Below are positions 5,197-35,115 of a stretch of 42,944 bases of DNA, in pieces. The notes beneath the pieces are model-generated. The model was given only the letters and a program-made list of their open reading frames with translations. It did no database searches and had not been told where the DNA came from. Where the stretch lies: positions 1 through 42,944 of IMG/VR virus record IMGVR_UViG_3300028920_000130. The stretch is one strand, 5' to 3'. The translations under genes and the position numbers were made by a program. The first letter of the stretch is position 1. Each line of letters begins with the position of its first letter. This DNA comes from a virus.

Positions 5197-5674
5197 CGCC
5201 GGGCACCTCCCGGAACCCTTCGTAGAGATCGAGGTCCGCTTCGATCTGCGCGGCGCCTGGGCCGTTGTCGATCACGATGCGTCGGCGCCCGTTGACGTCG
5301 AAGTACCGCGCGTGGAACCAGCCCCGTCGGATCACTCGGAAAAACAGCCGCTCGCCCTGCGCCCCCGGCAGCTCGATCGTCTCGCCTTCCTTCACGCGGA
5401 CCCGCTTGTGCAGCGTCTTCGCGCGCCGGTTGACATCGCGCCATTCGTGGCGCATCGCCTTGCGGCTGGACTGGTGGATCGTGTATCGCTTCATTCCGGA
5501 TCGCCGCAGATAGGACGGCAGTTCCTGCTGCACGACGAACTGGCGCTCGCCCGTTTCCTCATCCTTCACGACGACGACATTCGTGCGGTCCACGAACCGC
5601 GGCAGCTTCATCGCCGCAATCTTCTTCGCCTCGGCCGTCGTCGGCTTCAGCGTCTTCGATGCAATCTCACTCAC
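5189..5674 (-). CDS. Small basic tail protein following tape measure
   Basis: This is a 161-residue basic protein with no motif I recognise. I chose the GTG at 5674 because a GGGGGAG ribosome site lies 8 bases upstream and the start overlaps the end of the tape measure gene by 8 bases. An earlier in-frame ATG would extend the gene well into the tape measure. The product is rich in Arg and Lys, with a beta-rich C-terminal half containing an RIVIDNGPG stretch. Its place between the tape measure and the large tail-tip protein suggests a distal-tail or tail-assembly role, by position only. Confidence 0.7.
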   Translation of the reverse strand: MSEIASKTLKPTTAEAKKIAAMKLPRFVDRTNVVVVKDEETGERQFVVQQELPSYLRRSGMKRYTIHQSSRKAMRHEWRDVNRRAKTLHKRVRVKEGETIELPGAQGERLFFRVIRRGWFHARYFDVNGRRRIVIDNGPGAAQIEADLDLYEGFREVPGGG

Positions 5675-7733
5675 GGAAGAAGCTCCCCCTTCCAACATCG
5701 TCGGCAATACCACGCATCGCCATCTCGACCTCGCGGCGCACGGCCCCCGGCGACCCGCCATCGACGTTGATCACGATCGCGCCTGACCCCACGCTGATGC
5801 TGTTCGTGTCGCCGCCTTGCATCATCTCTCGCGTCGGCCCCGCAGGAATGACCAGCTCCGGGCCGGCCTCACCGACCATCGCGAGCTCTGGACCATGTAG
5901 GCCGGCGATGCCGCCTCGCTGGTAAGTCGGGAAGTCAGGTTTTGGCGTCTGGTCAATCATCTGTTCTTGCGCTGCCCATGCAGCCGTCAGGGCTACGGTC
6001 GCTATTGCACCGCCAATCGGACCCAGTTGGCGGAACGCTTTCATGATCGAAACGGCGTAATCCATTCGGGCCTGGGCACGGGCCGCCTTCTTCTCCGCAT
6101 TCCACTGGTCTATTTTAATCTGGGCGATCGCGTTAGCCTTTTCCTTTTCGCTCATGTCAGACTGACGGATACTTGCGATCTGCGCGCTGGTTTCCGCGTC
6201 CAGCTTCATCTGATTCAGGTCGAGCCACATCTGTCCGAGCGTTTCAGTCAGTTTGATCGCCTCCCCGCGGATCGTTTTGTTTGTAGCCTCGACGGCCTTC
6301 GTCCTTGCCTTCTGTGCGTCCTCGAGGGCCTTCGTCCGTTTCTTGTACTCGCCCTCAATCCATGCGGTGAATTCTTGCTCGTTGTACTTTACCTGTTCGA
6401 TCGTCCCAGCGTTCTCTTCGATAAGCGCCTCGGCGTTTTCGGCTCCGGCCTCACGGATCTTGTCGTAGTCACCGAGGATCGAATCGCGCAGCGACTGAAA
6501 CTTCTCCTTCATCGCCGCGACCATGTCTTCCCACGTATCGCCGATGGCTTTTCCTGCGATGTCTGCCGCCTTCTTGAAGTCGCCCTCCATCAGCGCCTTC
6601 CATGCGTCTGCCAGTTCCTTGATCATCTCAATGACGCGGCGGATCGGGACGATGATGAAAGAAAGTTTCTCCGTCAGGATGCGCAGGCCGTTCTTCGCCG
6701 CCTGTCGCATGTTGCCGTCGGCGGCCTGGATGGCGGTCGCCAATTCGGAGGAACTGTCCGCGGCCTTTTTCGTTATAGCCGCTACCGGGAACAGGACGGA
6801 TGTTACCTTTTCCACAAACAGCTTGATGGACCGGAACGCGACGCCGAAAGCGTTGGCGACCTTCCGCACGGTCATTGCCGCCCCTCCGAGTTCTTCGATC
6901 AAGCTCTTGAGCCCGCGCATCGCAGGGAGAAGCGCCTTCATGAGCTCCTGGCCGATCGCGACCTTCATGTCGTCGAACTCCGCGCGCAGCTTCTTCATCG
7001 TGTTCTTGTAGCCATCCGCGGTGCGCGCCATGTCGCCGATCGCATCGCCGGAATCCTTCGCGATGATCGCCATGGTGGCCTGCGCCTTGGCAGCCGTCGT
7101 CAGGGCCTCCCCCTGCTTGACGAGGCCCATGTTGAGCGCCTCGACCGCGATTCGATCCTGCGTGAGGAAGACGCCGTATTTCCGCATGGGCTCGATCTGC
7201 CCGGCAAGCGCAGACTGGATGTCTCGCATCACCTCGTCCATGGACTGCGCGCGCGGGTTGAATGAGAACAGGTCTGCGGACAGCTTCACGATCTCGCCGC
7301 CCAACGCTGCCGCAGCCCCGCGGCCCATTCCCATCGGCACCAGCATGTCCTGAATCGCCGACAGGAAGTTCGTCGCCTCCGTCGTGCTCATCGCGTAGTC
7401 TTTGACGAGCTCCTTGCGCATCGTGTTCGCTTCCCTGCGAACTCCACGGAAGACGACGTTAAACTTGTTGTTGGCCTCCTCGAAATTCGACGCGGCCTTT
7501 ACGGCCTCCTTGCCGAACCGCACCAGCGCAACAACCGTACCGCCGATCGCAGCGGCAACGGCGAGCCAACCCGCCTTTAACTTTTTGAACCACTGCGCGC
7601 TTTTTTTCGTGGTCTTCTCGCCCTCTTTGGCGACTTCGTACTCGGCGCGAGCGATGGCCCCGATCTGTGCGCGGACTTTCTCGTCGCCCTTAAGCAGCGC
7701 CTCGAGGAACACCTTGGCGGTCGTGTCAGCCAT
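5667..7733 (-). CDS. Tape measure protein
   Basis: This 688-residue protein is mostly helical, with alternating Ala/Lys/Glu-rich coiled-coil stretches, a hydrophobic segment near residues 55-72 and another near 590-615, and a Gly-rich C-terminus. The region around residues 80-270 (SNFEEANNKF, then AQATMAIIAKDSGDA and DGYKNTMKKL) is the conserved core of TP901-type phage tail tape measures. Such proteins set tail length; at about 1.5 angstrom per residue this predicts a tail near 100 nm. The ATG overlaps the stops of both chaperone frames (7726 and 7733), the usual siphophage order. Confidence 0.9.
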   Translation of the reverse strand: MADTTAKVFLEALLKGDEKVRAQIGAIARAEYEVAKEGEKTTKKSAQWFKKLKAGWLAVAAAIGGTVVALVRFGKEAVKAASNFEEANNKFNVVFRGVRREANTMRKELVKDYAMSTTEATNFLSAIQDMLVPMGMGRGAAAALGGEIVKLSADLFSFNPRAQSMDEVMRDIQSALAGQIEPMRKYGVFLTQDRIAVEALNMGLVKQGEALTTAAKAQATMAIIAKDSGDAIGDMARTADGYKNTMKKLRAEFDDMKVAIGQELMKALLPAMRGLKSLIEELGGAAMTVRKVANAFGVAFRSIKLFVEKVTSVLFPVAAITKKAADSSSELATAIQAADGNMRQAAKNGLRILTEKLSFIIVPIRRVIEMIKELADAWKALMEGDFKKAADIAGKAIGDTWEDMVAAMKEKFQSLRDSILGDYDKIREAGAENAEALIEENAGTIEQVKYNEQEFTAWIEGEYKKRTKALEDAQKARTKAVEATNKTIRGEAIKLTETLGQMWLDLNQMKLDAETSAQIASIRQSDMSEKEKANAIAQIKIDQWNAEKKAARAQARMDYAVSIMKAFRQLGPIGGAIATVALTAAWAAQEQMIDQTPKPDFPTYQRGGIAGLHGPELAMVGEAGPELVIPAGPTREMMQGGDTNSISVGSGAIVINVDGGSPGAVRREVEMAMRGIADDVGRGSFFRE

Positions 7734-8526
7734 TAGCGTCGCCTCCTCCGATGACTTCGGTTCCGCCCTCGATTCGCGTTCCGTCGGGCCGCATCATGTA
7801 TTTCTCGATTGCGATCACTTTCCCGTTCTCCGAATCGCGTCGCAAGAAGGGCGAGTTGGGAAACCGTGGCGCCCAGGGCTTCGTCGAGGGAGAGCCCGAG
7901 GTCTCGGACGGCGAAGAGGACGAGGCCTCCAATTCCACCTTGAGAAGCGCGGCCAGAGACCGGGCGTTTTTTTTTACGGCAGCGATGTTGTAGAGGTAGA
8001 CGGCCATCCAGATGCGCATGAGCTGGTCGACCGTGACGTGCTTGCGGAAGTACCGGAAGGACATGCCCTGAGGTTTCGGGGGCTCCCACCCGTGCTTGAT
8101 CGCGGCCCTGCGACGGTCGCGGCGCCACCAGGGGATCGGCTCGTTGACGGGGTCGCGGAACAGCGTCCGTTTCACCGCGTACATGATCATGCGGCGGCAG
8201 TCCTCGCGGGTCGCCATGCGCTGCATCATCAGCGACAGGCGCGCGAGCTTTTTGTCGGTCTCGTAGTCCTCCCACTCCGGCCAGTCGTACTCGGACAGCA
8301 TCGCGTAGAACTGCGTGACGAACAGGGCGAAGAACCGCTGGAACTTCTGCCACTGGACGATCGGGAAGCACCGGACGGTCAGCACCTTCTCGTCCGGCCC
8401 GATCACGGTCTGGAACGGAGTCGCGCCGGCAATGCGCGAATCCTCGATCCCCTCGATGAGCCGGTCGAGGTAATCGGATGAAGACGTGCGGCCCCGAAGG
8501 GCCGCATTGTTTGCGGATCGCGCCAT
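7726..8526 (-). CDS. Tail assembly chaperone, frame-0 product
   Basis: This 266-residue protein is encoded between the major tail protein and the tape measure, the invariable position of tail assembly chaperones (lambda G/GT type). It has a helical, Trp- and Arg-rich core up to about residue 190 and then a Ser/Pro-rich linker. Codons 184-187 are GTA AAA AAA AAC, a run of nine A on the coding strand (7975-7967) that makes a slippery site. Frame 0 stays open after the run to a TGA overlapping the tape measure start, so two products of almost equal length are possible. The ATG overlaps the upstream TGA. Confidence 0.8.
   Translation of the reverse strand: MARSANNAALRGRTSSSDYLDRLIEGIEDSRIAGATPFQTVIGPDEKVLTVRCFPIVQWQKFQRFFALFVTQFYAMLSEYDWPEWEDYETDKKLARLSLMMQRMATREDCRRMIMYAVKRTLFRDPVNEPIPWWRRDRRRAAIKHGWEPPKPQGMSFRYFRKHVTVDQLMRIWMAVYLYNIAAVKKNARSLAALLKVELEASSSSPSETSGSPSTKPWAPRFPNSPFLRRDSENGKVIAIEKYMMRPDGTRIEGGTEVIGGGDANG
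7733..8526 (-). CDS. Tail assembly chaperone, predicted -1 frameshift product
   Basis: Slipping back one base at the A-run (7975-7967) joins residues 1-186 to a different 78-residue tail, giving about 264 residues. The -1 frame reads a hydrophobic helical segment (LVLFAVRDLGLSLDEALGAT) and then an Arg-rich end, and its TAA overlaps the ATG of the tape measure (TAATG). The -1 frame stays open all the way from the slip site, and the region encodes plausible protein in both frames. This fits the G/GT mechanism known from lambda and many siphophages. Slip direction and efficiency are inferred, not shown. Confidence 0.6.
7966..7977 (-). promoter_or_regulatory. Slippery site for -1 ribosomal frameshifting
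   Basis: The coding strand reads GTA AAA AAA AAC, containing overlapping A-AAA-AAA and A-AAA-AAC heptamers, both of which allow tandem -1 slippage of Lys tRNAs. It is the longest homopolymer run I noticed inside a gene in this GC-rich genome, and it sits in the tail chaperone gene, where programmed frameshifting is known. Confidence 0.65.
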
Positions 8527-9146
8527 CAGTCGATCTCGCACGGGGTCACAGGTGCCGCGCACGGGTCGATGAACCCGCCGCTCGGCACTGCCAGCTTGCC
8601 GATGCAGACGTAGAGGAGGTCGCCTGTCTTGTCGCAGATGTCCTCCTCCGGCCATGCACTGACCGTGACCGGCATTCCCGTGTACTCCCCGGTTCCCGTG
8701 GTGAGTGTTCCTGGGTTCAGGATCACGCCACGCCGGAAGCACCACTGAATCGGGCGCCCGTCGCGCAGCTCGGAGATCCACCACCACGACATCTCTGCCG
8801 GGGCGTTGGGTTCCGAGCCAAGGGTGACGACATCCGTGTTCGGGTCCGTGCGGTCGATCTCGCCATTGAGCCAGAGGGCCACGTTGACGGGGTCGAACTG
8901 CTTGAACGTGAACTCGAAGGTCGGGGCGATCCCGGAGACGTCGGCGACGTAGGTCGCCGCCGGCACTCCGCGCTTCCACTCCACCATCTCCATGTTGAGT
9001 GTCAGCGTCTTCTCGGCGTCGGTGAGACCGAGAGTTACGATGTCGCCCGTCGGGTCGTCGGCACCGCGCGCGTAGACATCCGCTTCCTTGATGAGCATGT
9101 CGTCTCGGGTCGTACCGTGACGAAATGCCAGTTCGTTTATGTCCAC
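8526..9146 (-). CDS. Major tail (tube) protein
   Basis: This 206-residue acidic, beta-rich protein is encoded directly before the tail chaperone and tape measure, the standard position of the major tail tube subunit. It has the size and composition of that class: alternating short beta strands with Thr, Gly and Asp turns, such as DIVTLGLTDAEKTLTLN near residues 35-51. The start is GTG, with an AAGGAG site 5 bases upstream. The first 10 bases overlap the end of the glycosyltransferase gene before it. Confidence 0.75.
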   Translation of the reverse strand: MDINELAFRHGTTRDDMLIKEADVYARGADDPTGDIVTLGLTDAEKTLTLNMEMVEWKRGVPAATYVADVSGIAPTFEFTFKQFDPVNVALWLNGEIDRTDPNTDVVTLGSEPNAPAEMSWWWISELRDGRPIQWCFRRGVILNPGTLTTGTGEYTGMPVTVSAWPEEDICDKTGDLLYVCIGKLAVPSGGFIDPCAAPVTPCEID

Positions 9147-9916
9147 GCTTGCTCCTTTCTGCCCGTCGCCGCACCAGCCAAGAGCGGCTCCAGACGTTCT
9201 AGCCTATCGAGTCGCGGTTTCCCGCGTTGCTCCGCGAAGACCTTGCGTCGGTGCTCTCGCGTCCATGCCTGGAGCACCGACTCCGGCCGGTTCCGGTTGT
9301 AGTGGTAGATCGTCGCGTCGATCGAGGCAACGCGATCGGGGCCGCAGAGATCGACGACCGGGTAGAAGAGCGAGCCGTCGAATCCGGTCGGATAGAGACC
9401 GCTGCCGTCGTCCCACTCGAAGAACGAGCGAGGAATGTGCGGCCACAATGCGGCCCGGAAGGACTGCGGCGCCGTGGTAAACCAGCCCAGCTCCCGGATG
9501 CGTTCGAACCGCTCCGGCGTCCACGGCTTGAACTCGGTCGAGACCATGCCCGTCTGGTTGCGCCAGTTTCCGTAGGTTGCCCAGGCACCGAGACGGTGGG
9601 CGTCGTGGATGATCTGGAGGGCGTTGCTGTCGAGGGCGTCGTCGAGGTCGAGCCCGACGAGGATCTCGCAGCCGTCTTCGATCAGCTTCTCGATCGCGGC
9701 CACCTTGAGGGCAACCGAATGCTGGCGGGACTCACACAGGAAAATGGTGCCGTCGATGTCCGATGTCTGCCCTATGGCGTTGAAGGTTTCGACGTCCGCG
9801 CCATCGACCCAGACGATCGCTTTCCAATCCTTGAACGTCTGGGCAGAAAGCGACCGCATGCACTCTTGCGCCATCTTCGGGCACTTCCACCCCGCGATGT
9901 AGACGCCGATCTTCAC
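9137..9916 (-). CDS. Glycosyltransferase, GT-A/GT2-like
   Basis: This 259-residue protein begins with a Rossmann-like strand (KIGVYIAGWKCPKMAQ) and has IVWVDGAD near residue 40 and GLDLDDALDSNAL near residue 90. The DxDD motif is the metal and nucleotide-sugar binding site of GT-A glycosyltransferases. A conserved-looking acceptor region (FEWDDGSG) follows. It is the last gene of the sugar/methyl island and overlaps the major tail protein start by 10 bases. The start is GTG, with GGAGG 5 bases upstream. Donor and acceptor are unknown; a virion protein is a plausible acceptor from context. Confidence 0.75.
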   Translation of the reverse strand: MKIGVYIAGWKCPKMAQECMRSLSAQTFKDWKAIVWVDGADVETFNAIGQTSDIDGTIFLCESRQHSVALKVAAIEKLIEDGCEILVGLDLDDALDSNALQIIHDAHRLGAWATYGNWRNQTGMVSTEFKPWTPERFERIRELGWFTTAPQSFRAALWPHIPRSFFEWDDGSGLYPTGFDGSLFYPVVDLCGPDRVASIDATIYHYNRNRPESVLQAWTREHRRKVFAEQRGKPRLDRLERLEPLLAGAATGRKEQAWT

Positions 9917-11415
9917 GGCGTCCTCCGGTATGCTGCCAGCTCCGCGCGTCTTGGCTGCGCGAGGATCCGCGCGCGGATGGCGTCTCGCGTCGACTGCGAG
10001 AATACATGGCTCACCTGCCGCGACGTGTCGATCTGTAGCCTGAAAAATCGGTTGCGGATCGCCAGGATGCGATCTCGGCCGGCCATCTCGGCCATCGGGC
10101 AGTATGTCGCGACGTCGTATTTGCACGGCGGCCAGTCACCGCCGAACCGGACGTCATTCTCCGAGAGCTCCCAGTAGAGCCCCGCGCGGAACGATCGCAG
10201 GCCGGTCATAAACAACGGCTCCCTCCGCGCGGTCGGCAGCCTGTCCTTGCTCTCCGGCCCGTGCGTCTTCCCGTTCTGGTCGATCACGCCGCCATAGGTC
10301 ATCCAGAGATTCGGGTTCTCGCGGTAGCACCGCAGCAGGAACGATAGCGCGCCCGGCTCGAGGGAGTCGTCGAGGTCCACCTGGAGGATTACGTCATCTG
10401 CCTCGACTCCGTCGAATGCGTGCGCGGCCTCCCACGCCGAATAGGGTCCGTACATCCGGCGCTTATGGCGGATCACCTTGATGCGCTCGTCTCCATCGCG
10501 CGCAGACATCACCTGTTCGTATGTGCCATCCGTCGAGCCATCGTCAACGACGACCTGCCGGAAGTCCTCGCCCTGCTCGCGCAACCGCCGCACGTTGACG
10601 GCGGCGAGACCGCCGCAGTTGTAGCCGGCGGAGAAAACGAAAATCGGCCGAGCCGGATAGAGCGGAGCATAGGAATCGTATCGACGCCAGAGCTCCATCG
10701 GCCGGTCCTGCGTGTTGTCCCATCCTCCGCTGTTCGGGCTTGCCTGCGCTTTCGTCTGTCCGAACTTCGCGTTGTAGTGCCAGAACATCGGCGGACCGCC
10801 ACCGTAGCCCCTGGGTGCCCACCGCACGATCCGCGTGTTGTCGTTCGGGATCGTGGCGATAGGGCCGATCTGGTTCCACAGGTTCTGGTCCGTCCCCCAC
10901 CCGTCGTTGACGTCGCGACGATGGTCGAGGGAGAGCAGCTTCTCGTAAAGCCGCTCGCTCGGCGTCACGACGATCACGGCACCGCTCCACTGCGGCATCC
11001 GCGGCTCCCGCAGCATGCAGACTTCGCCAGCGCGATCCAGCAGGACGTCAATCGGTCCGTCACAGACCATGTCCGCGTCGAGGAAGCAGGCTCGCCTCGC
11101 TCGCATTGCGTCCGGGTTCGCGATCTCCAGCGAGTAGAACCCGGGATGTGTCCGTGGCGAGATCTCCTTGATGCCCAGCTCCTCATGCTTCGTCCCGCGA
11201 AATGTCCTGTAGCGCGACGGGTCCGCCTTCCAGAACTCGACCCCATGATACTCCGCTCGAATCTCGGCCTGCTGCGCCGGCGTCAGGTTGTCGTGGATGA
11301 CGACGAACGCGCAGGACAGGCCACGGTTGCGGTGGAGGAGCGATCGCATCAGGACTTTCCAGTGTCGCAAGTACAGCTCGCCCTTGACGACGGACGCTAG
11401 AACCAGCGGTCTCAC
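9913..11415 (-). CDS. Two-domain glycosyltransferase (GT8-like plus GT2)
   Basis: This 500-residue protein has two catalytic-looking domains. The N-terminal half resembles GT8-type transferases, with FLDADMVCDG (DxD) near residue 111 and a later GTDQNLWNQ motif. The C-terminal half is a classical GT2 domain, with VVVDDGSTDG near residue 290 and QVDLDDSLEPG near residue 345. Two domains in one chain suggest sequential addition of two sugars. The GTG start overlaps the preceding stop (GTGA). A longer in-frame opening exists upstream but is the shadow of the previous gene. Confidence 0.75.
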   Translation of the reverse strand: MRPLVLASVVKGELYLRHWKVLMRSLLHRNRGLSCAFVVIHDNLTPAQQAEIRAEYHGVEFWKADPSRYRTFRGTKHEELGIKEISPRTHPGFYSLEIANPDAMRARRACFLDADMVCDGPIDVLLDRAGEVCMLREPRMPQWSGAVIVVTPSERLYEKLLSLDHRRDVNDGWGTDQNLWNQIGPIATIPNDNTRIVRWAPRGYGGGPPMFWHYNAKFGQTKAQASPNSGGWDNTQDRPMELWRRYDSYAPLYPARPIFVFSAGYNCGGLAAVNVRRLREQGEDFRQVVVDDGSTDGTYEQVMSARDGDERIKVIRHKRRMYGPYSAWEAAHAFDGVEADDVILQVDLDDSLEPGALSFLLRCYRENPNLWMTYGGVIDQNGKTHGPESKDRLPTARREPLFMTGLRSFRAGLYWELSENDVRFGGDWPPCKYDVATYCPMAEMAGRDRILAIRNRFFRLQIDTSRQVSHVFSQSTRDAIRARILAQPRRAELAAYRRTP

Positions 11416-12095
11416 AGGAGCCTCCTGCATGCGGCGTCTCGCGTCGGGTAGTGGTCCGGATCGAAGCACAGCCCGGCCTCTTCCTCGCGGGTCTCGTGGA
11501 CGCCGGCCACGATCGCCGGGTGAACGTACCCCTGGATATGCGCGGAGACCCAGATGTCGTCCGCGTATCGCATCTCCTGCTCGTCCTTCAGCGATCGCTC
11601 GCAATGGAGCGCGTTGAGCGGCAGGCGGTTAGCGACGAGGCTCGTAGGGAGGAACGAGTACCCCGTATTGCAGGCCGGCGCCGGACCTTGCTGCACGTTG
11701 TTCCCGCTCTTCGCGTAGCCTCGCGACTCGGTCAGCGTCTTGCCTCCGCGTGTGAGCCAGTAGATCGTCTCGCGGTTCGGCTCCTCACTGTACCAGTCCA
11801 CAAGCTGCCCGAAGAGATCCGGGTCGCGGATCTCCCAGTCATCGTCCTGCGTCCAGATCCAGCGCGAGCGCACGAGGCCCATGATCGGGAACCGCACGGC
11901 AGATCCGAAGTTTCGCGAACACGCAATCACCACGTCGGCCTTCTCCTCGCACGACTTCGGCATGCCCTGGCCCTCGTTGCAGACGACCCAGACCTCGGCC
12001 TCGAGCGACTGCGCGCGGATGCCACGGATCGCCCTGTCGAGGTGCCCGGCCCGGCGGTGATAGACGATAAGCGCGGTTACTGCCGCCACTGGCAC
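11412..12095 (-). CDS. Glycosyltransferase, GT2-like
   Basis: This is a 227-residue single-domain enzyme. It opens with ALIVYHRRAGHLDRAIRGI, the first beta strand and helix of GT2 folds, and has WTQDDDWEIRDPDLF near residue 80, where DDD binds the metal and sugar nucleotide. Several GTG codons compete at the start. I prefer 12095 because a GAGGAGG site lies 8 bases upstream; GTG 12104 would sit directly on that site. The gene overlaps the end of the methyltransferase before it by 19 bases and ends in a GTGA coupling to the double-domain transferase. Confidence 0.7.
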   Translation of the reverse strand: MPVAAVTALIVYHRRAGHLDRAIRGIRAQSLEAEVWVVCNEGQGMPKSCEEKADVVIACSRNFGSAVRFPIMGLVRSRWIWTQDDDWEIRDPDLFGQLVDWYSEEPNRETIYWLTRGGKTLTESRGYAKSGNNVQQGPAPACNTGYSFLPTSLVANRLPLNALHCERSLKDEQEMRYADDIWVSAHIQGYVHPAIVAGVHETREEEAGLCFDPDHYPTRDAACRRLL

Positions 12096-12562
12096 CAGTA
12101 CCACCTCCTCGGGTCGCCAACAGGTAGCCGGATCACCGATGCGCCCGGCATCATTCGCTTTAGGTCGTCGCTATTCCAGAAGTGCTTGTGGCCGGGGTCC
12201 ATCTGCCGCCGCATGATCGGAACCGTCACAAAGACGCACGACCGGCACACGCGCGCCAGCTCGCGGCAGACGGCCGCCGGGTTCTCGCAATGCTCGAGCA
12301 TCTCGAAGCACCCGACGTAATCGAATGCAGAGTCCTCGAACGGCAGCACCGCGGCATCCGACAACGTGTAGTCCGTCCAGTAGACAGGCCGCTCGCGGTA
12401 CTTTTCGACGGCAGCGACAGAGTCGAACTTGCCGGACTCGACGATAAGTTTCGTTAGATACCCATCGCCGATACCGACGTCCAGAAACGTGCCGCCGCGA
12501 GGCAGATGCCTCAACGTCTGCTCGTACCGTGCGAGCGTTAGCTTGTCGGCTGCTACTTCCAC
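12077..12562 (-). CDS. SAM-dependent methyltransferase, class I
   Basis: This 161-residue protein has a clear class I motif I (FLDVGIGDGYLTK, near residue 25), an acidic motif II (VAAVEKYRE) and a motif IV/V-like FDYVGCFEMLEHCENP followed by AAVCRELARV, as in Methyltransf_11 small-molecule and sugar methyltransferases. It is short for the family but complete. The start is GTG at 12562, overlapping the previous stop by 10 bases. Placed among glycosyltransferases, it probably O- or N-methylates a sugar or glycan. Confidence 0.75.
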   Translation of the reverse strand: MEVAADKLTLARYEQTLRHLPRGGTFLDVGIGDGYLTKLIVESGKFDSVAAVEKYRERPVYWTDYTLSDAAVLPFEDSAFDYVGCFEMLEHCENPAAVCRELARVCRSCVFVTVPIMRRQMDPGHKHFWNSDDLKRMMPGASVIRLPVGDPRRWYWCQWRQ

Positions 12563-13200
12563 GCCGCGATCTGGCCTCCCTGTTTTTCCGTTCCCCTGAC
12601 GGGCTCGCCATCAGTCACGACGGTATAGCCCTTCTTCTCGAAGTACCGGGGATTCAGCGGATTCCGGTGCTCCTCGTGCGGGTTGCCGTCGATCGGCCCC
12701 TGCGGGTAGTCGCCCCACGGACAGCCGATGAGGACGTGATCCGCGCAGGCCTCCAGCTTCTCCAGGCACGGGCGCACCTCGTTCGACTCGACGTGCTCCG
12801 GGCCGTGCCACCAGACGGCTAGGTCGTAGTGCTCGGTGATGTCCACCGTGCGGATGTCTGCCAGGTCGATCGCAGCATCGACGCCCATGATCGCCTTGAG
12901 GGCCTCGCAGTTCGGCTTCCAGATCTCGATGATCCGAACCACGCAGCCCTTCAGCTTCTCCCAGAACGCAAACGCCTTCGGGTTCGCGCCCACGTAGAGG
13001 ACGCGCCCCTTGAAGTCGACGGCGCACTTCTTCGCGAGCTTGCGGAGAGCCCGCAGGTATCGCTTGTCAGTCGCCGCGATTACGGCCGACGACGATCTTG
13101 TACTGCGCGGCCTTCGACCTCGCGGTTTCGGGGGTGATGTCGCCCCATCCTGCTCGGGCGAGGAGCTCGGTGAGTTGTACTGCTCTTCGATGTTGGACAT
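12553..13200 (-). CDS. Methyltransferase-like protein, degenerate SAM motif
   Basis: This 215-residue protein has a Rossmann-like core (RVLYVGANPKAFAFWEKL, near residue 67; then IIEIWKPNCEALK and YDLAVWWHGPEHVES), typical of class I methyltransferase folds although the glycine motif is weak. The first 40 residues are Ser/Pro/Arg-rich and lie in a 134-base overlap with the previous gene. I see no other good start before the core, so the ATG at 13200 is kept with reservation. It may be an inactive partner or a divergent methyltransferase of the glycan island. Confidence 0.6.
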   Translation of the reverse strand: MSNIEEQYNSPSSSPEQDGATSPPKPRGRRPRSTRSSSAVIAATDKRYLRALRKLAKKCAVDFKGRVLYVGANPKAFAFWEKLKGCVVRIIEIWKPNCEALKAIMGVDAAIDLADIRTVDITEHYDLAVWWHGPEHVESNEVRPCLEKLEACADHVLIGCPWGDYPQGPIDGNPHEEHRNPLNPRYFEKKGYTVVTDGEPVRGTEKQGGQIAAWK

Positions 13201-13651
13201 ATTCGGGTCCGCCTTTCACGGTGTTATCGATCACCAGCACTTTCTGCGATCGTATTCTCGTCAGGACGCCGATTGCCTCGACGTCCGTCATGTGTTGCAG
13301 CGTCATGGAGAGGAAGAGCCAGTCCGTTACGATCCGCTCGTCGAGATCCTCTACGTGGAGGAACGTCGCCCCGTACCGCTCCGCGTTCGTGTCCATCATG
13401 GCCGGCACGATGTCCGCGCCGACGTACAGGTAGCCGAGCCGCGTCCAGACGTCGAAGAATCGCGCCTCGCCGCACCCGTAGTCGAGAACCGTTTTCGAGC
13501 CCTTTGCGCCTCCGGCGGCCCTCTCGATTTCGATCTCGAGGAACTCGCGCTCGGCCTTGCGCTGCTCGGGCGATAGGTCGCGGTCTTCGGAGAACGCCTT
13601 CCCCGTGTTCACCGACTCCTCCCATCGGCTGGCCCAGTCAAGCCGTCGCAC
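13067..13651 (-). CDS. SAM-dependent methyltransferase, class I
   Basis: This 194-residue protein has VLDYGCGEARFFDVW near residue 54 (motif I), YVGADIVPAMMDTN (motif II) and WLFLSMTLQHMTD (motif IV region), the pattern of small-molecule methyltransferases. The GTG start at 13651 has GGGAG 7 bases upstream and overlaps the end of the heptosyltransferase-like gene by 14 bases. The C-terminal 50 residues overlap the next gene in another frame. Sugar or nucleotide-sugar methylation is inferred from the neighbours. Confidence 0.7.
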   Translation of the reverse strand: MRRLDWASRWEESVNTGKAFSEDRDLSPEQRKAEREFLEIEIERAAGGAKGSKTVLDYGCGEARFFDVWTRLGYLYVGADIVPAMMDTNAERYGATFLHVEDLDERIVTDWLFLSMTLQHMTDVEAIGVLTRIRSQKVLVIDNTVKGGPEYVQHRRAVQLTELLARAGWGDITPETARSKAAQYKIVVGRNRGD

Positions 13652-14741
13652 TGGCCATCTCCCGCACCCCGGCCATCTCTTCGGCCGCGTCCGCGACCTC
13701 GTTAACGGGCCAGTCCATGCACTCGTGATCCCTGTAGCCATGCTCCGCGCACTGCGCGAAGATCCCGCGGTGCCAGCACCCCTTGCACTTCAGGTCTTTC
13801 TGCAAGACCCGCTTCGGCGAGTCCTCGTATCCCCAGTGGTAGACCCCCGGCGGCGTCGGCCCCTCGATTGCCACGACCGGCGTCTTCAGCGTCATGGCGA
13901 TGTGCATCGGGCCGCTGTCCGGGGATACGACCGCAGCGCAACGCTTGATCACCCCGCACAACTGCCCGACCGTCAACACGCCCTGGAGGTCGATGACGTT
14001 CTCGTGTTCCACCTTGCAGACCTTCGCATGGTGAAGCAGGACAACCTTGTGGCCGCGGTTCGCTAGCTCCTCGACCAGTGCGTCCGTGTGCATGTAGTTC
14101 CGATGCTCGCTCGAGGTCTCGACGCAGACGCCGATCGTCCCTTCCGGGATGAGCCGCTCCGCCTTGCGTTCCCATGCCGGGTTAAGATTCAGCAGCGGGT
14201 GCTTGTCGCGGATGGTCACGCCGAGGAGTTGCGAGAACAGCAGCGATCGCGGGGTGCGCCACTGCGCGCCCTTCATGATCTCGACCTTCATGTTGAGGTC
14301 GACCTTCGCAGAAATGTCCACGCCCTCCGGCATCTTGTTTGGCGCGCAGGTCAGAACCCGCTCAAGGTCCGGATGGTAGCGCACGAGGTCGGTAAAATCC
14401 TGCTGCGCACTGACCCGCATGCAGGCGAAATGGACCGCCCAGCCTTCCGCGGCCAGGGCGCGCAGCGACGGCTCCAGCATGAGGATGTCGCCGATCCCCA
14501 TCGACCGCCCGATGAGGATGGGCGGCTTGTAGCCGAACTTCGCCTTGAACTGGTCCGGAAGCATGTACCGGACCTGGCGGAACCGCTTGATCAGCGTGAT
14601 TCCGACATGCCGCGGGACGCGCATCGGCGCGAACGGTCGCAGCTCGATCGCGACGTGGTTGTCGTACCGCCAGCGCGGCCACGCCTCCGGTCGCCCCTTC
14701 GTTATGTTCACCGCTACGGCGTAGTCCGGAGACTGGTTCAT
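13638..14741 (-). CDS. Heptosyltransferase-like glycosyltransferase (GT9/GT-B)
   Basis: This 367-residue protein resembles ADP-heptose:LPS heptosyltransferases. It has GRSMGIGDILMLEPSLRAL near residue 75, TIGVCVETSSEHRNY starting the second Rossmann domain, and VSPDSGPMHIAM near residue 275, the signature of the GT9 donor site. A Cys cluster (KCKGCW, then C residues toward the C-terminus) may bind a metal. ATG 14741 is preferred over GTG 14747 because the AAAGG site is well spaced for it. It is the first gene of the island and follows a tail-completion gene in a 4-base overlap. Such a gene inside a virion morphogenesis cluster is unusual. Confidence 0.75.
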   Translation of the reverse strand: MNQSPDYAVAVNITKGRPEAWPRWRYDNHVAIELRPFAPMRVPRHVGITLIKRFRQVRYMLPDQFKAKFGYKPPILIGRSMGIGDILMLEPSLRALAAEGWAVHFACMRVSAQQDFTDLVRYHPDLERVLTCAPNKMPEGVDISAKVDLNMKVEIMKGAQWRTPRSLLFSQLLGVTIRDKHPLLNLNPAWERKAERLIPEGTIGVCVETSSEHRNYMHTDALVEELANRGHKVVLLHHAKVCKVEHENVIDLQGVLTVGQLCGVIKRCAAVVSPDSGPMHIAMTLKTPVVAIEGPTPPGVYHWGYEDSPKRVLQKDLKCKGCWHRGIFAQCAEHGYRDHECMDWPVNEVADAAEEMAGVREMASATA

Positions 14742-15223
14742 TCCCACGACCTTTGACAGAAGAGTTCGTCATACAGCGCAATGCAGCGACGGTATCGCCA
14801 CGCCGGGTTGTCCGTGCCGAAGAGGTAGCCCGAGTCTACGTCGAAGAGCCGGATGATATCGGCCTGCCTCTCACCGTCCGCCGGCAGGTGCTGGTTCTCG
14901 GGGTCGAAGAGTAGATGCTCGAGCTCCCACCATGCGTCGAGCAGCCGCTGGAGGCTCTCTGCGCTGGTCGTCCACTTCACGCCGATTTCCACGACGATCA
15001 TGTAGCGTTTGAACCGGGTCTGCCCGGTCTTGTTCGGTGCGTCGGTCTCGCCGCCGTCCTCGATCATCGCGTATGTGGTGTCGGATCGAAGCGTCTTCGA
15101 GGCCATGTCGCGATAGCCGTAGTAGACGCGATCGACGTGGCCAGCGTCTACCAGGCCCGTCTGTAAGAGGTCGCGGAACGTCGGCAGAAGGATTTTCATG
15201 CCGAGCTGATTCATGTAGTCCAC
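14738..15223 (-). CDS. Tail terminator / tail-completion protein (putative)
   Basis: This 161-residue protein lies after the HK97 gp10-like gene, where the tail terminator (lambda U-like) or neck protein is usual. It shows an alpha/beta mix with a central strand (RYMIVVEIGVKW) and no enzyme motif. The GTG at 15223 overlaps the upstream TAG by one base, with CGGAGGG 8 bases before it. Assignment rests on order and size rather than on a recognised motif. Confidence 0.55.
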   Translation of the reverse strand: MDYMNQLGMKILLPTFRDLLQTGLVDAGHVDRVYYGYRDMASKTLRSDTTYAMIEDGGETDAPNKTGQTRFKRYMIVVEIGVKWTTSAESLQRLLDAWWELEHLLFDPENQHLPADGERQADIIRLFDVDSGYLFGTDNPAWRYRRCIALYDELFCQRSWE

Positions 15224-15777
15224 TACGTCGGCCCTCCGACCATCGGCTCCGGTAACATGTGCTCGATCAGGAGGCGCTGGAAGTGCGACTTGTCACGGCT
15301 GCTCACGCGGATCACCGGCCGATCCCCTATGATCTCGGCGGCGTTCTTCATCGTGGACCCAACGATGCTGCGCTGCCTGGAGAGAAGGATGTTGCGGAAG
15401 CTGTTGCGGAAGCCGCCGGACGCCTGGAGCAGTTTCGAGCTCGGCGAATAGCGCCGGACGTTCGCGCCCCTTTTACGCCGCGGCGTCTTGCCCTTCATGT
15501 CGGTTCCGTACCGGATGTTCCATGTGTTGATCGCGATCTTCGGCGTCTCGTCGGCGAGGTAGTACACAGGATGCAAGGTGTACGTGGAGAACTCGCGCCA
15601 CGGGCGCATGCCGTCCCGCGCGCCCTGCGTACGGAAGGTCTTGAAGATCTGCTGGAGGTTGAACGTCGCAACCGCAGCCATGAGCGGCCGCGACTGCATC
15701 ACCTGCTGATACCAGTCGCCGAACCACTTCTTGAGCTGCTTCTCGTTTGCTACGCGAAACGTCAGGCCGTCCGGCAT
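15223..15777 (-). CDS. Head-tail joining protein, HK97 gp10 / virion morphogenesis-like
   Basis: This 184-residue basic protein sits between the connector and the terminator-like gene. Its pattern (helical start, then an Arg/Lys-rich beta region with RRYSPSSKLLQASGGFRNSF) resembles HK97 gp10 or Mu virion-morphogenesis proteins, in which an LxxSG element precedes a beta core. The role would be to complete the neck between head and tail. The ATG overlaps the upstream TGA (TGATG). Confidence 0.55.
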   Translation of the reverse strand: MPDGLTFRVANEKQLKKWFGDWYQQVMQSRPLMAAVATFNLQQIFKTFRTQGARDGMRPWREFSTYTLHPVYYLADETPKIAINTWNIRYGTDMKGKTPRRKRGANVRRYSPSSKLLQASGGFRNSFRNILLSRQRSIVGSTMKNAAEIIGDRPVIRVSSRDKSHFQRLLIEHMLPEPMVGGPT

Positions 15778-17327
15778 CAGGGCAGGCCCTCCCGCACCGG
15801 ATAGTAGCCAGCCTGACTATCGGGCTTCGTCATGGACAAGATTCTCTCGGACCACTTGCCGTATCCGAAGACCGGGTATCGGTTGACGCGCGAGGCGTTC
15901 GTCTCGATCGTCTGGGCGGCCGGCCCGGCGGACGCGAGGATCTCGCCCTTGAGGAACTGGGCGAGGAGTTCGTCGCGCTCCTTCTCCCACATCACGCGGT
16001 CGTTGTTCTCCGCGCTTTCGCCCTCCTCGGAGTAGGCCGCCTGGAGGCACCCGGCAACACCGGCCGCTTCCGCGAGCGCCCTCACGAAATCCTCCGTATC
16101 CGGCAGCTCCTCCAGCATCGAGGGCCACTTCGATAGCTTCAGGCCCACCCACCGATCCGTCATGTCGAGGATTCGGGCAACCCACGCATCGGACTTCATC
16201 TCCTGGCTGATGCTCTCCAGCCACCGGCGGACACGCACGAGGCTCGCGTAGCTGGCGGTCGTAAGGCACACGCGCCCGAGGACGGGCGTCGAGATTCCGT
16301 CGTCACTGTGCAGGAAGACCACGAGGCGGAAGGCCTCGTGTGTCAGGGTGTGGCCGGGTAAGCCGGCGATCACCTGGGCTGCGGTGCTGGTCTGCGCGTA
16401 GGTGCCGTCGGAGTGAATCCATTCGGTCCCGGTGTAGTACTCGTCATGGGTGCCGGAGTCCTCGAGGCGCAGGAGATAGCGTACGTCGCCGTCGTCTTCC
16501 TCCATGTGCTCCTCGAAGGAGCGGAACTCCACCTCGGCCATCTGTTCCGTCACGATCGTCGGGTTCGCGACGGAAAAGATCACGGCTTCCAGTGCCGGTG
16601 GCACAAAGTTCGCGTTGTGGATCAGGCCGGGGAAAATCTGGAAGTCATCGAAGGCCGCATCCGGGGTCTGAACCAGCAACCGATCGTTGCCGATAAACAG
16701 GTAGGTGCTGGTCGTCGTCCGGCCGGCTACGCCACCGGGGTTGACGCCGAGAGACACGCCGTTGACGAAGAGATACGTTCCCGCGGCGTCCCAGTCGAGC
16801 TCAATGTCGTACCAGGCGCCCGCAATGGGCACCCACGCACCGGCTGACCAGTTGATGACAACGGCGCCAGCGGCATTCAGAATCCGGACCTCGATATTTC
16901 CGGTGAAGTCATGGTACAGCGTGATGCGATTGTTGTTTGTTGCCGGATCGTTGCCGCACGAAAACATGTGGCGCGCGGCTATCGGCGCGCCGGCGTAGTT
17001 GGGCCGGTAGCCGAAGCGAACGCACCCGGCGTTGCCGAGGTTCGCGACGTTCGGGCCGATGTATCCGACGTACTCACCCGCTACGCCGCCCTGAAGCTGG
17101 AGGCACCCGGCGCCGAACTGTGGGTTGACGTTGTCGATGGCGGGAGCGCCAGCCATCCCCGCCGTGACAGTCCCGAGCGAATAGTCCGCGTTGAACCCGG
17201 CATTCCACCGCGCTAGAAACGCGCAGTCATCCACCGGCCGCAGCTGGGCGACCCCGCTCCCGATAGCGATAAGGTCGCTGTCGTAGGTCAGGCCGGTGTC
17301 GCTATCGAAGTTCCAGCAGTGCTCCAT
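15777..17327 (-). CDS. LamG-domain protein fused to head-tail connector-like domain
   Basis: This 516-residue protein is encoded immediately after the capsid protein. Residues about 1-240 form a LamG/concanavalin A-like jelly roll (CVRFGYRPNY, NNRITLYHDFTG, WYDIELDWDAAGTYLFVNG). Residues about 290-350 are a small beta domain. The C-terminal 150 residues are helical (SDAWVARILDMTDRWVG, then RVNRYPVFGYGKW) and look like a gp6/gp36-type connector. A carbohydrate-binding type domain fused to a neck protein is unusual and suggests decoration around the neck. The ATG has a GAGGG site upstream, and a strong hairpin lies just ahead of the gene. Confidence 0.65.
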   Translation of the reverse strand: MEHCWNFDSDTGLTYDSDLIAIGSGVAQLRPVDDCAFLARWNAGFNADYSLGTVTAGMAGAPAIDNVNPQFGAGCLQLQGGVAGEYVGYIGPNVANLGNAGCVRFGYRPNYAGAPIAARHMFSCGNDPATNNNRITLYHDFTGNIEVRILNAAGAVVINWSAGAWVPIAGAWYDIELDWDAAGTYLFVNGVSLGVNPGGVAGRTTTSTYLFIGNDRLLVQTPDAAFDDFQIFPGLIHNANFVPPALEAVIFSVANPTIVTEQMAEVEFRSFEEHMEEDDGDVRYLLRLEDSGTHDEYYTGTEWIHSDGTYAQTSTAAQVIAGLPGHTLTHEAFRLVVFLHSDDGISTPVLGRVCLTTASYASLVRVRRWLESISQEMKSDAWVARILDMTDRWVGLKLSKWPSMLEELPDTEDFVRALAEAAGVAGCLQAAYSEEGESAENNDRVMWEKERDELLAQFLKGEILASAGPAAQTIETNASRVNRYPVFGYGKWSERILSMTKPDSQAGYYPVREGLP

Positions 17328-17396: not shown

Positions 17397-18350
17397 CTAG
17401 CAGTTCGTGATCAAGAACCCGGCATTGGCGTTGACGACCAGCTCGTCGATCGTGGACCGGATGGTCCAGCGCTCGGCGATGTCGGCCTCGTCGTCCCTGC
17501 CGCTCTTGATGGGCTTGAGCTGGTGCAGGCGAGTGTTCGGCTGGAAGCCGAAGCAGTTCGTGTTCTTCGTGGGTGCCGCCACCCGGTGGAACACGCACAC
17601 CGTCCGCCCCCAGATCCCGGACACCACGTTCGGGTCCGAGGGGGTGTTCTCGTCTGTCTCCAGCCCACACACGCCTGCGATCCTCGGCTCGAGCCCCATG
17701 GCCCGGAGCCCCTGGATCGCCTCGAAGATCCGCTCGCGAATCCCGACCTCGGTGAAGCGGTAGGTGTCCCGCCACTGCGTGGTCTTGATCATGTCGAGCA
17801 TGACCTCCATGGGCATGGTGATCGCGTTCGCGGCGAGCTGCGGCGCGTTGCGCCAGACCCGTCGCTTGGCCTCGATGATGTCGTTGATCGGCGTGGCGTT
17901 GACGTTCGTCCACGCGAAGCCCGACCCGTCGATGGCCGCGGCGGTGGCGTTCGGCACGATCGCCGTGTTACCGGCAATCGCTGCGACGCGGTACTCGCGC
18001 GCGAGCATGTGGTCCTTCCCGAGGAACCGCACGTTGTCCTTCCGGAGGTCCGCGAGATCGGACTCCTCGAGGTCAGCGCGGCAGATCGCCGCCCCCAGGC
18101 CGTACTCTTCGCAGCGGTACGTGTCCTGGACGGCTTCGATCTCGATTTCCTTGGGACGTTCGCATTTCCCGATCTTGTCGTTGAGGACGCGGTGAGTCGT
18201 GGCGTTGGTGTACCGGAGGTACAGGCCCGTCCGTTTCTTCACCGTGAACGGGGGGAAGATGAAGTCCCCCACGAACATGTCCTGCGGCGACTCGATCGAG
18301 AGCCTGGTGAGCGGATGCTGGACGCTCAGGGCACCGGGAGTGAGTAGCAT
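17397..18350 (-). CDS. Major capsid protein
   Basis: This 317-residue protein follows the protease-scaffold and decoration genes and has the best ribosome site of the region (AGGAGG 6 bases before the ATG at 18350), as expected for the most abundant virion protein. Its sequence (FIFPPFTVKKRTGLYLRY early, LGKDHMLAREYRVAAIAG mid, and a beta-rich C-terminus) has the look of an HK97-fold capsid protein of the E-like or gp5-like classes. No transmembrane or enzymatic motif is present. Confidence 0.85.
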   Translation of the reverse strand: MLLTPGALSVQHPLTRLSIESPQDMFVGDFIFPPFTVKKRTGLYLRYTNATTHRVLNDKIGKCERPKEIEIEAVQDTYRCEEYGLGAAICRADLEESDLADLRKDNVRFLGKDHMLAREYRVAAIAGNTAIVPNATAAAIDGSGFAWTNVNATPINDIIEAKRRVWRNAPQLAANAITMPMEVMLDMIKTTQWRDTYRFTEVGIRERIFEAIQGLRAMGLEPRIAGVCGLETDENTPSDPNVVSGIWGRTVCVFHRVAAPTKNTNCFGFQPNTRLHQLKPIKSGRDDEADIAERWTIRSTIDELVVNANAGFLITNC

Positions 18351-20321: not shown

Positions 20322-20518
20322 TTCATTCTCATTCCCGGTCGGGGAACGACGATCCGCCCCTTCCGCTTGCCGTTCTCGTCGTCGGGGTCTTTGAGCCGCG
20401 AGGCGAGGGCGTCGATCGCCGCAGCTAGGTGGCAGATGGCTTCCTTGACCGTCACGCCGCCCTCGAACTTGAGGCCGCTCTTCCCGTCTTCCTCCCACGC
20501 CAAATGGATCTGCTTCAT
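20318..20518 (-). CDS. Small protein between portal and protease genes, function unknown
   Basis: This 66-residue protein starts at ATG 20518, with GGAGG 6 bases upstream inside the end of the portal fusion gene, and is coupled to it by a 4-base overlap. It is amphipathic and helical in the middle (VKEAICHLAAAIDALASRLK), with a basic C-terminus. I recognise no family. Position suggests a head assembly accessory protein. Confidence 0.55.
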   Translation of the reverse strand: MKQIHLAWEEDGKSGLKFEGGVTVKEAICHLAAAIDALASRLKDPDDENGKRKGRIVVPRPGMRMN

Positions 20519-22800
20519 CGCTTGCCTCCGAACCGCTTCGACGGGACCGTACCCTGTAGCCATTTCTTCTCCGGTGGCGTCTCACCCTTGAGAACGGGCG
20601 AGAGCACCGACCGGCACTTGTCGTGATTGGGCGGGACGATCCGCGAGAACATCGGGTTCCGCGCCTCGATGTAGCGGCCGTCCTGCTCGTGGCAGAACGG
20701 CGTTTCGCGGCCGTCGAGGATCGCGTCGTACATGTAGCCCTGGACGATGTCGCCGGCATCGCGGAACGTTTGCATCCGGCCGTTGTTGAACATCTCGCTG
20801 GAGTTGTTGCGCACGATCGTCTGGGCGGTCGCCTTGGCCTTGCCCGCGATGTCGGCCTCGATGAGGTCTACAATCTCGCGGGTCGTCATCGTTTTGGCGT
20901 TGTTGAAGATGAGGGTGCCGACCTTCGCAACCGTCTCCTGCGATTTCACACCGGACATGTAGAACGAGTACTTGCGGCAGTAGAGGATCGCCTCGCGGTC
21001 GGCCGCGGTGAACTCCAGCCCATGCTCCTTGAGCCACGACTCGACCCACGATCGGTCGAGGAACTGCTCGGTCTCTTCCCACTCGGGCCAGCCGATTTGC
21101 TCGACGTCACGCATGCGGCGGGCTCCGCCTAGCTCCTGCGATGCGGCGAGGCGCCCGTGGAAGTACATGCGGGAGCCAGAGACCTCGTAGACCCGGCGGA
21201 GCTGGCGCACCCACTTGCCGGGCGCCTTGAGGTCGTCGATCTTCGCCCAGTCGCCCGCCAGCGCACCGTTCTTCTGCGCCTGCTCGCTCGCTGCGCGGGC
21301 AGTCTCGGCGAGGGCCTGCTCGGCGATCGGATCGGCAGCACTCTCGATGTCATCGTACCATCGCCGCGCTTGCTTGGCGTCGAACCGCGAGGAGCGCGCC
21401 ATCTTCTGCGTCCCTGGCTTCTCGTCGCCGTCGGCCTGCGGTTTCGGTTCGTCCGGGGTCGGTTGCGGCACCGGCTCGCCTTCGGGCAGCTCCTCGGCAT
21501 CGGGAATCCCGGCCCAGGGGCGCACCCACTTCTCGCTCGTCGAGACCAGACCGCACTCCTTGCCCACCTTGATGGCCTCGGCCTTGGCCTGCGTGTAGCC
21601 CTCCCCATCCCCGGCGGCTACCAGCTTCGGGCAGGCTGCATCGGGGCCGAAATTCCACCGCACCAGCGGCCAGATGATTTGCGCGTTGACGACGTTGCAG
21701 AGCTGGTTGCGCGTGTAGCGGGTGTCAAGAGTCACCACGTTCGCGAACTGGGACTCACCGAGGGCGCGCGAGCCATACTTCGCGTCGGCAAAGCCAGCCA
21801 TATCGGGCACAAGCAACTTGCGGCGCATGGAGTTGTCGAGCGCCTTGATCGTGTCGGTGTACTGCGCTTGCCCGTTCTGCTTTTGCTCGAGGAATGAGAC
21901 CTTGGCCTGCGGGACGTACTCCTCCTTTTCCTGGTGCCAGTCCGCCGGGATGTAGATCACCAGATCGTCCTGCCAGTTGTCGAGGCTGGTCTTCAGCGCC
22001 GAGATCTGATCCTCGCTCATGTCGCTGCGGAACTCGGCAACGACGGTCGGCGAACCGAACTTCTGGCCGTGGATGTTGCGGAATTTGAAGTGGTGGGCCT
22101 TGGCGAAGAACTCGCGATAGATGGCGGAAAGGTCGGAGCGGCCGTACCAGTTCGCGTCTCGCACGTAGGGCCAGACAAACAGGATCACGGAGGACGGGTC
22201 GATCCGCTTGTCCTTGTCGAGCGAGGCTCCTTGCTCGGGCTCGCCGACGTAGATGTAGAGCAACTCGTCCGACTCCTGGTCGACGTAGAACTGGATCTCA
22301 TAGGACGGCTTGCAGATGATGCTGCGGTATATCCATCGGCCGGCGTCGCCGACGACATGCGGCACGGCGAGCTTGAAACCGTAGCTGCGCGCGTCGAGCA
22401 GGTTGTCCAGCATGGACGCGAACGAGGGCCGCGCGGGCTCGCGCTTCTCGCCCATGGGATACTCGAACGACTCCAGATTCTCAGCGACGAAGTCGCGGAT
22501 CTCCAGGTCTTTCGCGTCCTGCGAGGCCTCCTGGATTTGCCAGTTCGCCGAGAGCGCGAGGCGCTTCTTGAGATCCATCGTCCCCGCGATCACGTCGTCC
22601 ATGAGCATGCGGTCGAAGAGCTCCAGCCCCTTGCCCTTCTCGTAGAGCAGCGGGTCGGGGTTGTAGTCGTACTCGCGGTATTCGTGGACCGAGCGCGACG
22701 GGATGGTCGGGGCCTTCGTCGTAGGCGTGGCCGCAAAGAATTCGCGCCCCGCAGCGCGGAATCGCTCGCGGAATGCCTTACGCCGCTGTCGGACCTTCAT
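20515..22800 (-). CDS. Portal protein fused to MuF-type head morphogenesis protein
   Basis: This 761-residue protein joins two normally separate proteins. Residues about 1-420 look like a DUF935/Mu gp29-type portal (KRLALSANWQIQEAS, then NLLDARSYGFKLAVPHVVGD and SVILFVWPYVRDANWYGRSD). Residues about 520-740 are a MuF/SPP1 gp7-type domain (IVRNNSSEMFNNGRMQTF, FCHEQDGRYIE, PPNHDKCRS). A Pro/Glu/Asp-rich linker near 430-470 connects them. The portal forms the dodecameric DNA gate, and MuF-type proteins act inside the head. ATG 22800 has GAGGAAG upstream and overlaps the terminase stop (ATGA). Confidence 0.8.
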   Translation of the reverse strand: MKVRQRRKAFRERFRAAGREFFAATPTTKAPTIPSRSVHEYREYDYNPDPLLYEKGKGLELFDRMLMDDVIAGTMDLKKRLALSANWQIQEASQDAKDLEIRDFVAENLESFEYPMGEKREPARPSFASMLDNLLDARSYGFKLAVPHVVGDAGRWIYRSIICKPSYEIQFYVDQESDELLYIYVGEPEQGASLDKDKRIDPSSVILFVWPYVRDANWYGRSDLSAIYREFFAKAHHFKFRNIHGQKFGSPTVVAEFRSDMSEDQISALKTSLDNWQDDLVIYIPADWHQEKEEYVPQAKVSFLEQKQNGQAQYTDTIKALDNSMRRKLLVPDMAGFADAKYGSRALGESQFANVVTLDTRYTRNQLCNVVNAQIIWPLVRWNFGPDAACPKLVAAGDGEGYTQAKAEAIKVGKECGLVSTSEKWVRPWAGIPDAEELPEGEPVPQPTPDEPKPQADGDEKPGTQKMARSSRFDAKQARRWYDDIESAADPIAEQALAETARAASEQAQKNGALAGDWAKIDDLKAPGKWVRQLRRVYEVSGSRMYFHGRLAASQELGGARRMRDVEQIGWPEWEETEQFLDRSWVESWLKEHGLEFTAADREAILYCRKYSFYMSGVKSQETVAKVGTLIFNNAKTMTTREIVDLIEADIAGKAKATAQTIVRNNSSEMFNNGRMQTFRDAGDIVQGYMYDAILDGRETPFCHEQDGRYIEARNPMFSRIVPPNHDKCRSVLSPVLKGETPPEKKWLQGTVPSKRFGGKR

Positions 22801-27746: not shown

Positions 27747-28003
27747 TGTAGCCTCTCTATCTGACGGTCGATCTCGGCAAACGTCACAACGGCCTTCGCC
27801 TCTCCGTCGATGGTAGCGGAGACACCATTCGCCTTCGCTTCCTTGAGCACGTCGATGGCAACCGACCGCTCGCGGGTGAGCCATGCCTCGGCGGGGGCAA
27901 TCGCAGCGTCAACGCGATGGGGAACTCCGATGCTAGCCAGTTCTGCCCATGCATCCCTCGCCGCCTCGATCAGCGTCTCGACTGGGTGCTTCTCGTCAGC
28001 CAT
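27743..28003 (-). CDS. Small helical protein, function unknown
   Basis: This 86-residue, Ala/Glu-rich, probably helical protein (VETLIEAARDAWAELASIG, RSVAIDVLKEAKANG) ends in DRQIERLQ. ATG 28003 has GAGG 7 bases upstream. Its last codons (ATAGAGAGGCT) are part of a junction repeat also found at the ends of the next two genes. I recognise no family. Confidence 0.55.
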   Translation of the reverse strand: MADEKHPVETLIEAARDAWAELASIGVPHRVDAAIAPAEAWLTRERSVAIDVLKEAKANGVSATIDGEAKAVVTFAEIDRQIERLQ

Positions 28004-35113: not shown

Positions 35114-35115
35114 TC

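Follow-up and report, generated by a model that had tools for sequence, protein, structure and literature searches.

A glycosyltransferase and methyltransferase gene island among the late genes of an uncultured tailed phage, and its possible role in virion glycosylation

Introduction

The gtrABC O-antigen conversion modules of temperate phages combine a membrane flippase with a membrane-anchored transferase and lie beside the attachment site. Glycosylation of the virion itself has so far been documented mainly in a few mycobacteriophages. Capsid and tail tube glycans of mycobacteriophages are reported in passages of two articles, both citing Freeman 2023 (PMC11600133, PMC12619734), and the enzymes of Cluster O phages are said in one of these passages, on the same authority, to modify capsid and tail tube (PMC11600133). 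The Cluster O phage Corndog carries an O-methyltransferase and glycosyltransferases (gp35-gp38) between portal and protease, for which its authors propose a modification of the capsid (PMC4351075). Here, we describe an island of sugar- and methyl-transfer genes located among the virion genes of an uncultured phage, and the distribution of one of its proteins across other viruses.

Results

Gene order of the phage genome

The window, that is, the whole stretch of DNA analysed, comes from an uncultured tailed phage and is a linear virus record of 42,944 bases. Its recognised genes lie on the minus strand, and their order runs from right to left. The head region contains, in this order, genes for the small terminase, the terminase, a portal fused to a head morphogenesis domain, a protease, a scaffold/decoration protein and the major capsid protein (17397-18350; phrog_1005, 6e-29). 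Downstream of the capsid gene are a LamG protein, a neck-like gene, a probable tail terminator (14738-15223), the island, and a probable major tail (tube) protein (8526-9146), followed by a chaperone-like gene, the tape measure protein (5667-7733), the tail tip and a second LamG protein. The tape measure protein was assigned by 28% identity (2.8e-21) to the product of L059:13818-16463, a phrog_1533 tape measure match in another virus.

The portal and head morphogenesis domains share one gene of 844 aa (20515-23049), and are encoded by two separate genes in Bacillus phage Jayan. A radical SAM protein (26961-27884; phrog_9298, 3.6e-21) is 43% identical to L059:704-1531, whose gene is found just upstream of the head genes of that virus. 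Two adjoining tRNA matches were found with Rfam at 35041-35208, of which ARAGORN reports tRNA-Pro only. An excisionase/MerR-like DNA-binding protein is encoded at 33994-34698, and no integrase was recognised among the window proteins scanned.

LamG-type domains, which the initial annotation had placed on two virion proteins (158-1996 and 15777-17327), were recovered in both (1.8e-9 and 2.7e-7), and nothing ties these proteins to a glycan. The domain of 15777-17327 is N-terminal; its gene directly follows the capsid gene, a place occupied in distant phages by small head-tail adaptor genes.

The island encodes four glycosyltransferases and three methyltransferase-fold proteins

Seven tightly packed minus-strand genes (9137-14741) encode a GT9 protein, three methyltransferase-fold proteins (MT1-MT3) and three GT-A glycosyltransferases (GTa-GTc), one of them with two domains. 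This island had been proposed in the initial annotation, and all seven ORFs were confirmed in position and strand; the enzyme types come from Pfam searches, comparison of GTb with GTc and the structure model of MT2. The frames are intact with coding-like GC at codon positions, and Shine-Dalgarno-like motifs precede most of them. Neighbouring genes overlap by 4 to about 20 nt. The exception is the pair MT1 and MT2, which share 134 nt when the ATG at 13200 is taken as the start of MT2; translation of MT2 may begin further in.

GT9 (13638-14741, 367 aa) is a heptosyltransferase-like GT-B glycosyltransferase (PF01075, 2e-17; 63.8 bits against a curated cut-off of 22) that retains the N-terminal GD motif (MGIGDILMLEP) and matches the PDB entries 3tov (1.7e-6) and 1psw (3.3e-5). 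MT1 (13067-13651, 194 aa), whose start was chosen by its ribosome-binding motif, and MT3 (12077-12562, 161 aa) are predicted SAM-dependent methyltransferases: MT1 matches Methyltransf_23 (2e-5) and Methyltransf_11 (1.4e-4, over the cut-off), and MT3 matches Methyltransf_11 (5.5e-12) and PDB 6uak (8e-6). MT2 (12553-13200, 215 aa) falls in no Pfam or PHROG family and was assigned to the methyltransferase fold with AlphaFold and Foldseek. GTa (11412-12095, 227 aa) is a GT-A protein with a weak GT2 match (PF00535, 0.014). The two-domain GTb (9913-11415, 500 aa) shows a GT2 domain at its C-terminus (PF00535, 1.6e-12) and a GT8-like N-terminus whose match is weak and below the cut-off (PF01501, 0.0046); its PDB matches include chondroitin synthase and glycogenin, and it has a weak PHROG match (phrog_841, 0.016). 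GTc (9137-9916, 259 aa) by itself matches the GT2 family weakly, and it is a paralogue of the C-terminal domain of GTb (24% over 238 aa, 2e-17). The virion structural operon thus contains glycosyltransferase genes, with methyltransferases beside them (MT1 and MT3 by Pfam, MT2 by fold). No membrane segment was found in the island proteins, none of which reaches 1.6 in a 19-residue hydropathy window.

Flanks of the island

According to the initial annotation, the island lies between tail terminator and tail tube. The position fits the gene order, and the flank names are the softer part of this description, since they rest on that order: the terminator, which overlaps the GT9 gene, has no family match, and the tube protein, which overlaps GTc, has a weak one (phrog_117, E=0.002). 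A single-sequence structure model of the tube protein was of no use (pLDDT 33). The distant phages Jayan and CRP-6 show a similar order of flanking genes, with no sugar island at this place. The GC content of the island equals that of its surroundings and so gives no sign of recent acquisition. No phage relatives were found in viral contigs with the tail tube, capsid, GTb, GT9 and portal proteins or the GTb/GTc alignment as queries, and tblastn against named phages returned weak partial matches for GT9, one weak match for GTb and none for GTc. As no close relative was found to display an empty site, we only infer that the island was inserted between the tail genes.

MT2 belongs to a methyltransferase-fold family with no Pfam entry

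The AlphaFold model of MT2 (pLDDT 81) shows a class I SAM-methyltransferase fold, and TehB and DhpI are among its best Foldseek matches (4e-9 to 7e-8). Fold comparison alone was informative, and an MT2 profile gave nothing meaningful against PDB sequences. The family signature comprises YVGA, an invariant glutamate, WWHGPEH and PWGxYPQG..GN..E.H, with 13 positions invariant over 23 divergent aligned sequences, including E92 and E135-H136. The usual glycine-rich motif I is absent and reduced to YVGA. On the basis of this model, MT2 is a methyltransferase-fold protein and a putative enzyme of a family with no Pfam entry.

Homologues of MT2 were searched by sequence alone, ignoring position. The first search gave nine viral loci and the alignment search 80, 81 in total, and 13 loci (L015-L027) were found in genome contigs, mostly archaeal MAGs. 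Viral and cellular loci together fall into 42 clusters when grouped at 50% identity and into 60 when grouped at 70%. The archaeal MAGs include Woesearchaeota, Poseidoniaceae, Nanoarchaeota and Nitrosopumilaceae. Cellular homologues, from archaeal and bacterial MAGs, lie near polysaccharide-type genes: an ABC-type ATPase-like gene and DegT in L015, and GT2 in L027. A distant homologue was found among replication genes in phage Tunturi_4.

MT2 islands recur near glycosyltransferase and virion genes

GT2 genes are present in 49 of the 57 MT2-bearing viral records longer than 10 kb, usually within 3 kb. In the first search, seven of the nine records have them, and the two that lack them are fragments shorter than 7 kb. 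Of 50 further records, 42 carry GT2 genes, with a median separation from MT2 of 1.85 kb; in 35 of the 42 they lie within 3 kb. At least one of the terminase, capsid and tape measure genes was detected in 36 of these 50 records, within 10 kb in 24 and within 15 kb in 29. The nearest marker (TerL, capsid or tape measure) is on the MT2 strand in 49 of 51 cases, an agreement to be expected in part given that late genes share one orientation in any case, and the capsid gene is upstream of MT2 in nine of nine cases. Among the 20 records with a detected tape measure gene, MT2 lies 0-12 kb upstream of it in 16, compared with 4.0 expected, or in 12 of 15 compared with 3.0 when close relatives are collapsed; the expectation assumes uniform random placement on either strand, a simple null since late genes are co-oriented. 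A common spacing is 4-10 kb before the tape measure gene. MT2 of the phage studied here lies about 5.0 kb after the capsid gene and 6.2 kb before the tape measure gene (centre to centre).

Most MT2 islands are located within or adjoining virion operons, on the same strand; exceptions with no clear structural flank are L033, L047 and L081. The initial annotation had named homologous islands outside the structural cluster as evidence against its reading; with the MT2 family as probe, most islands lie inside that cluster or beside it. Further sugar enzymes in the islands include an NAD-dependent epimerase, UDP-GlcNAc 2-epimerase and a hexapeptide-repeat transferase, and sulfotransferase-like proteins were also recognised by eye. 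Four islands (L075, L059, L062 and L009) open with a conserved gene pair ahead of the glycosyltransferases, one gene for an IIGGGPSL-motif protein and the other for a small cupin-like protein.

Several slots are used, as assigned largely by eye from ORF lists. The island follows the capsid gene in L056, L012, L011 and L009, follows a head-tail adaptor-like gene in L075, L059 and L062, precedes minor head and connector genes in L006 and L007, and precedes connectors and the tail sheath in L010. Seven others (L091, L093, L030, L028, L031, L080 and L096) share the slot between tail terminator and tail tube. The order in L091 and L093 is tail terminator, MT2, a sulfotransferase-like gene, GT2 and major tail protein, and family matches back both flanks in L091 (terminator phrog_176, 1.5e-13; major tail protein phrog_1407, 3.6e-8), as they do the capsid in L012 (1e-43), the sheath in L010 (9e-44) and the tape measure in L006 and L011.

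The slot between terminator and tube is filled by a single gene that fuses MT2 with a glycosyltransferase in L028, L030, L031, L080 and L096, where the flanks were named from gene order and from the likeness of these loci to one another, helped by one weak terminator match in L080. MT2 follows a glycosyltransferase-like domain in L031, L080 and L096; in L028 and L030 it comes first, with a GT2-like domain after it. It also follows a GT2 domain in the fusions of L041 and L070. Since both orders occur, these sequences suggest that MT2 and the glycosyltransferase may work on one product. The fusion genes L041:2267-7612 and L070:8819-11691 directly precede genes with GPT collagen-like repeats, whose products are plausible glycan acceptors.

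A sugar aminotransferase gene outside the island

The gene at 31037-32062 (minus strand) encodes a DegT/ArnB-like sugar aminotransferase (PF01041, 4.8e-51). It is about 23 residues shorter than ArnB, and its PLP lysine and aspartate align to those of ArnB. It is located about 16 kb from the island, beside a holin-like gene. The initial annotation had suggested that this enzyme supplies an amino sugar: the gene is real, and it was set aside as the source of the island sugar because homologues occur at only 3 of the 81 viral MT2 loci. Some link with the island is possible.

Discussion

We consider the island to be probably a cassette, expressed late, whose enzymes assemble a glycan on a virion protein and methylate it; the carrier is probably the tail tube or the capsid. 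This reading is favoured by the position of the island, its packing with late genes, the lack of membrane proteins and the recurrence of such islands in other viruses. The main idea of the earlier proposal, a virion-directed glycan made along with late genes, is supported by the placement of most MT2 islands inside or beside the structural cluster; the making of a glycan, its nature and its place on the virion are what we infer, and the acceptor is assigned from gene position. The glycosyltransferases would place a sugar on a virion protein and build a short chain from it, probably drawing on host nucleotide sugars as donors, and the methyltransferases would cap or modify sugars of the chain. 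The most likely acceptor would be the product of the next gene downstream, the tail tube protein, or else the major capsid protein; as the islands occupy several different slots, the tube need not be the sole acceptor.

The island could instead serve the host surface: late in infection its enzymes would alter LPS or some other glycan of the envelope, and so stop new virions from binding debris or exclude other phages. GT9 belongs to the LPS core heptosyltransferase family, and the cellular MT2 homologues near surface-polysaccharide-type genes indicate that this type of enzyme also serves cell glycans. Against this, proteins with no membrane segment can provide neither a GtrA-like flippase nor a GtrB-like anchored transferase, and the islands recur inside virion operons, in some cases as single fusion genes between terminator and tube. 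We therefore regard a host-surface target as less likely than a virion glycan, and unlikely overall.

It is still less probable that the genes are metabolic or decaying cargo with no dedicated virion or surface target. The atypical motif I of MT2 and the weak family matches of GTa and GTc would agree with decay, but all seven genes retain open frames with a coding-like composition, 13 positions of the MT2 signature do not vary among the divergent sequences, and islands recur in the same place. Modification of phage DNA bases is very improbable: phage glycosyltransferases able to act on DNA are described (PMC12619734) and the window holds a C5-cytosine DNA methylase-like gene and the radical SAM gene, but the island enzymes belong to GT9, GT2 and GT8-like families, which serve the glycosylation of proteins and polysaccharides, their genes lie in the late structural region and not among replication genes, and neither DNA-glucosyltransferase families nor genes for hydroxymethylated nucleotides were among the matches of the window proteins scanned.

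Returning to the virion glycan, we tentatively raise a broader idea, which we hold as somewhat less likely to be right than wrong: the unrecognised methyltransferase family may mark a widespread system that decorates the tail tube or the head-tail junction with methylated glycans, in phages of uncultured hosts unrelated to mycobacteriophages, with the fusions between terminator and tube as its one-gene versions. If MT2 islands decorate virions, the trait spans many uncultured viral lineages and gains a sequence marker for metagenomes. Comparable islands at the head-tail junction of dozens of uncultured viruses mean that sugar-coated particles may be common. Such coats would matter for recognition by antibodies and for adsorption, and also for phage proteomics, in which modified subunits escape detection, and a fusion gene beside the tail tube gene offers a compact system where enzyme, acceptor and glycan can be tested together.

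The island shares phage-borne GT2-type transferases with gtrABC modules; unlike them, it encodes no GtrA-like membrane flippase or membrane-anchored GtrB, and it lies in the tail operon and not beside an integrase or attachment site. By the curated cut-off its GT9 is a member of the family of ADP-heptose LPS heptosyltransferases (PF01075), with only remote similarity to characterised ones. The MT2 model has the same fold as TehB and DhpI (2xvm, 3ou6; TM about 0.5-0.6, identity 12-17%) but differs from them in its reduced motif I and in the family-specific WWHGPEH and PWGxYPQG motifs. No mycobacteriophage was among the tblastn matches of GT9, GTb, GTc and MT2. Like Corndog gp35-gp38, the island pairs methyltransferase with several glycosyltransferases inside the virion structural operon; the Corndog cassette differs in lying between portal and protease and in having one methyltransferase, and a GT9 or MT2-type protein is not reported for it. 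Virion glycosylation is the most likely function of the island, a cassette whose general kind is known but whose position is new, and whose undescribed methyltransferase family reveals many similar islands in uncultured viruses.
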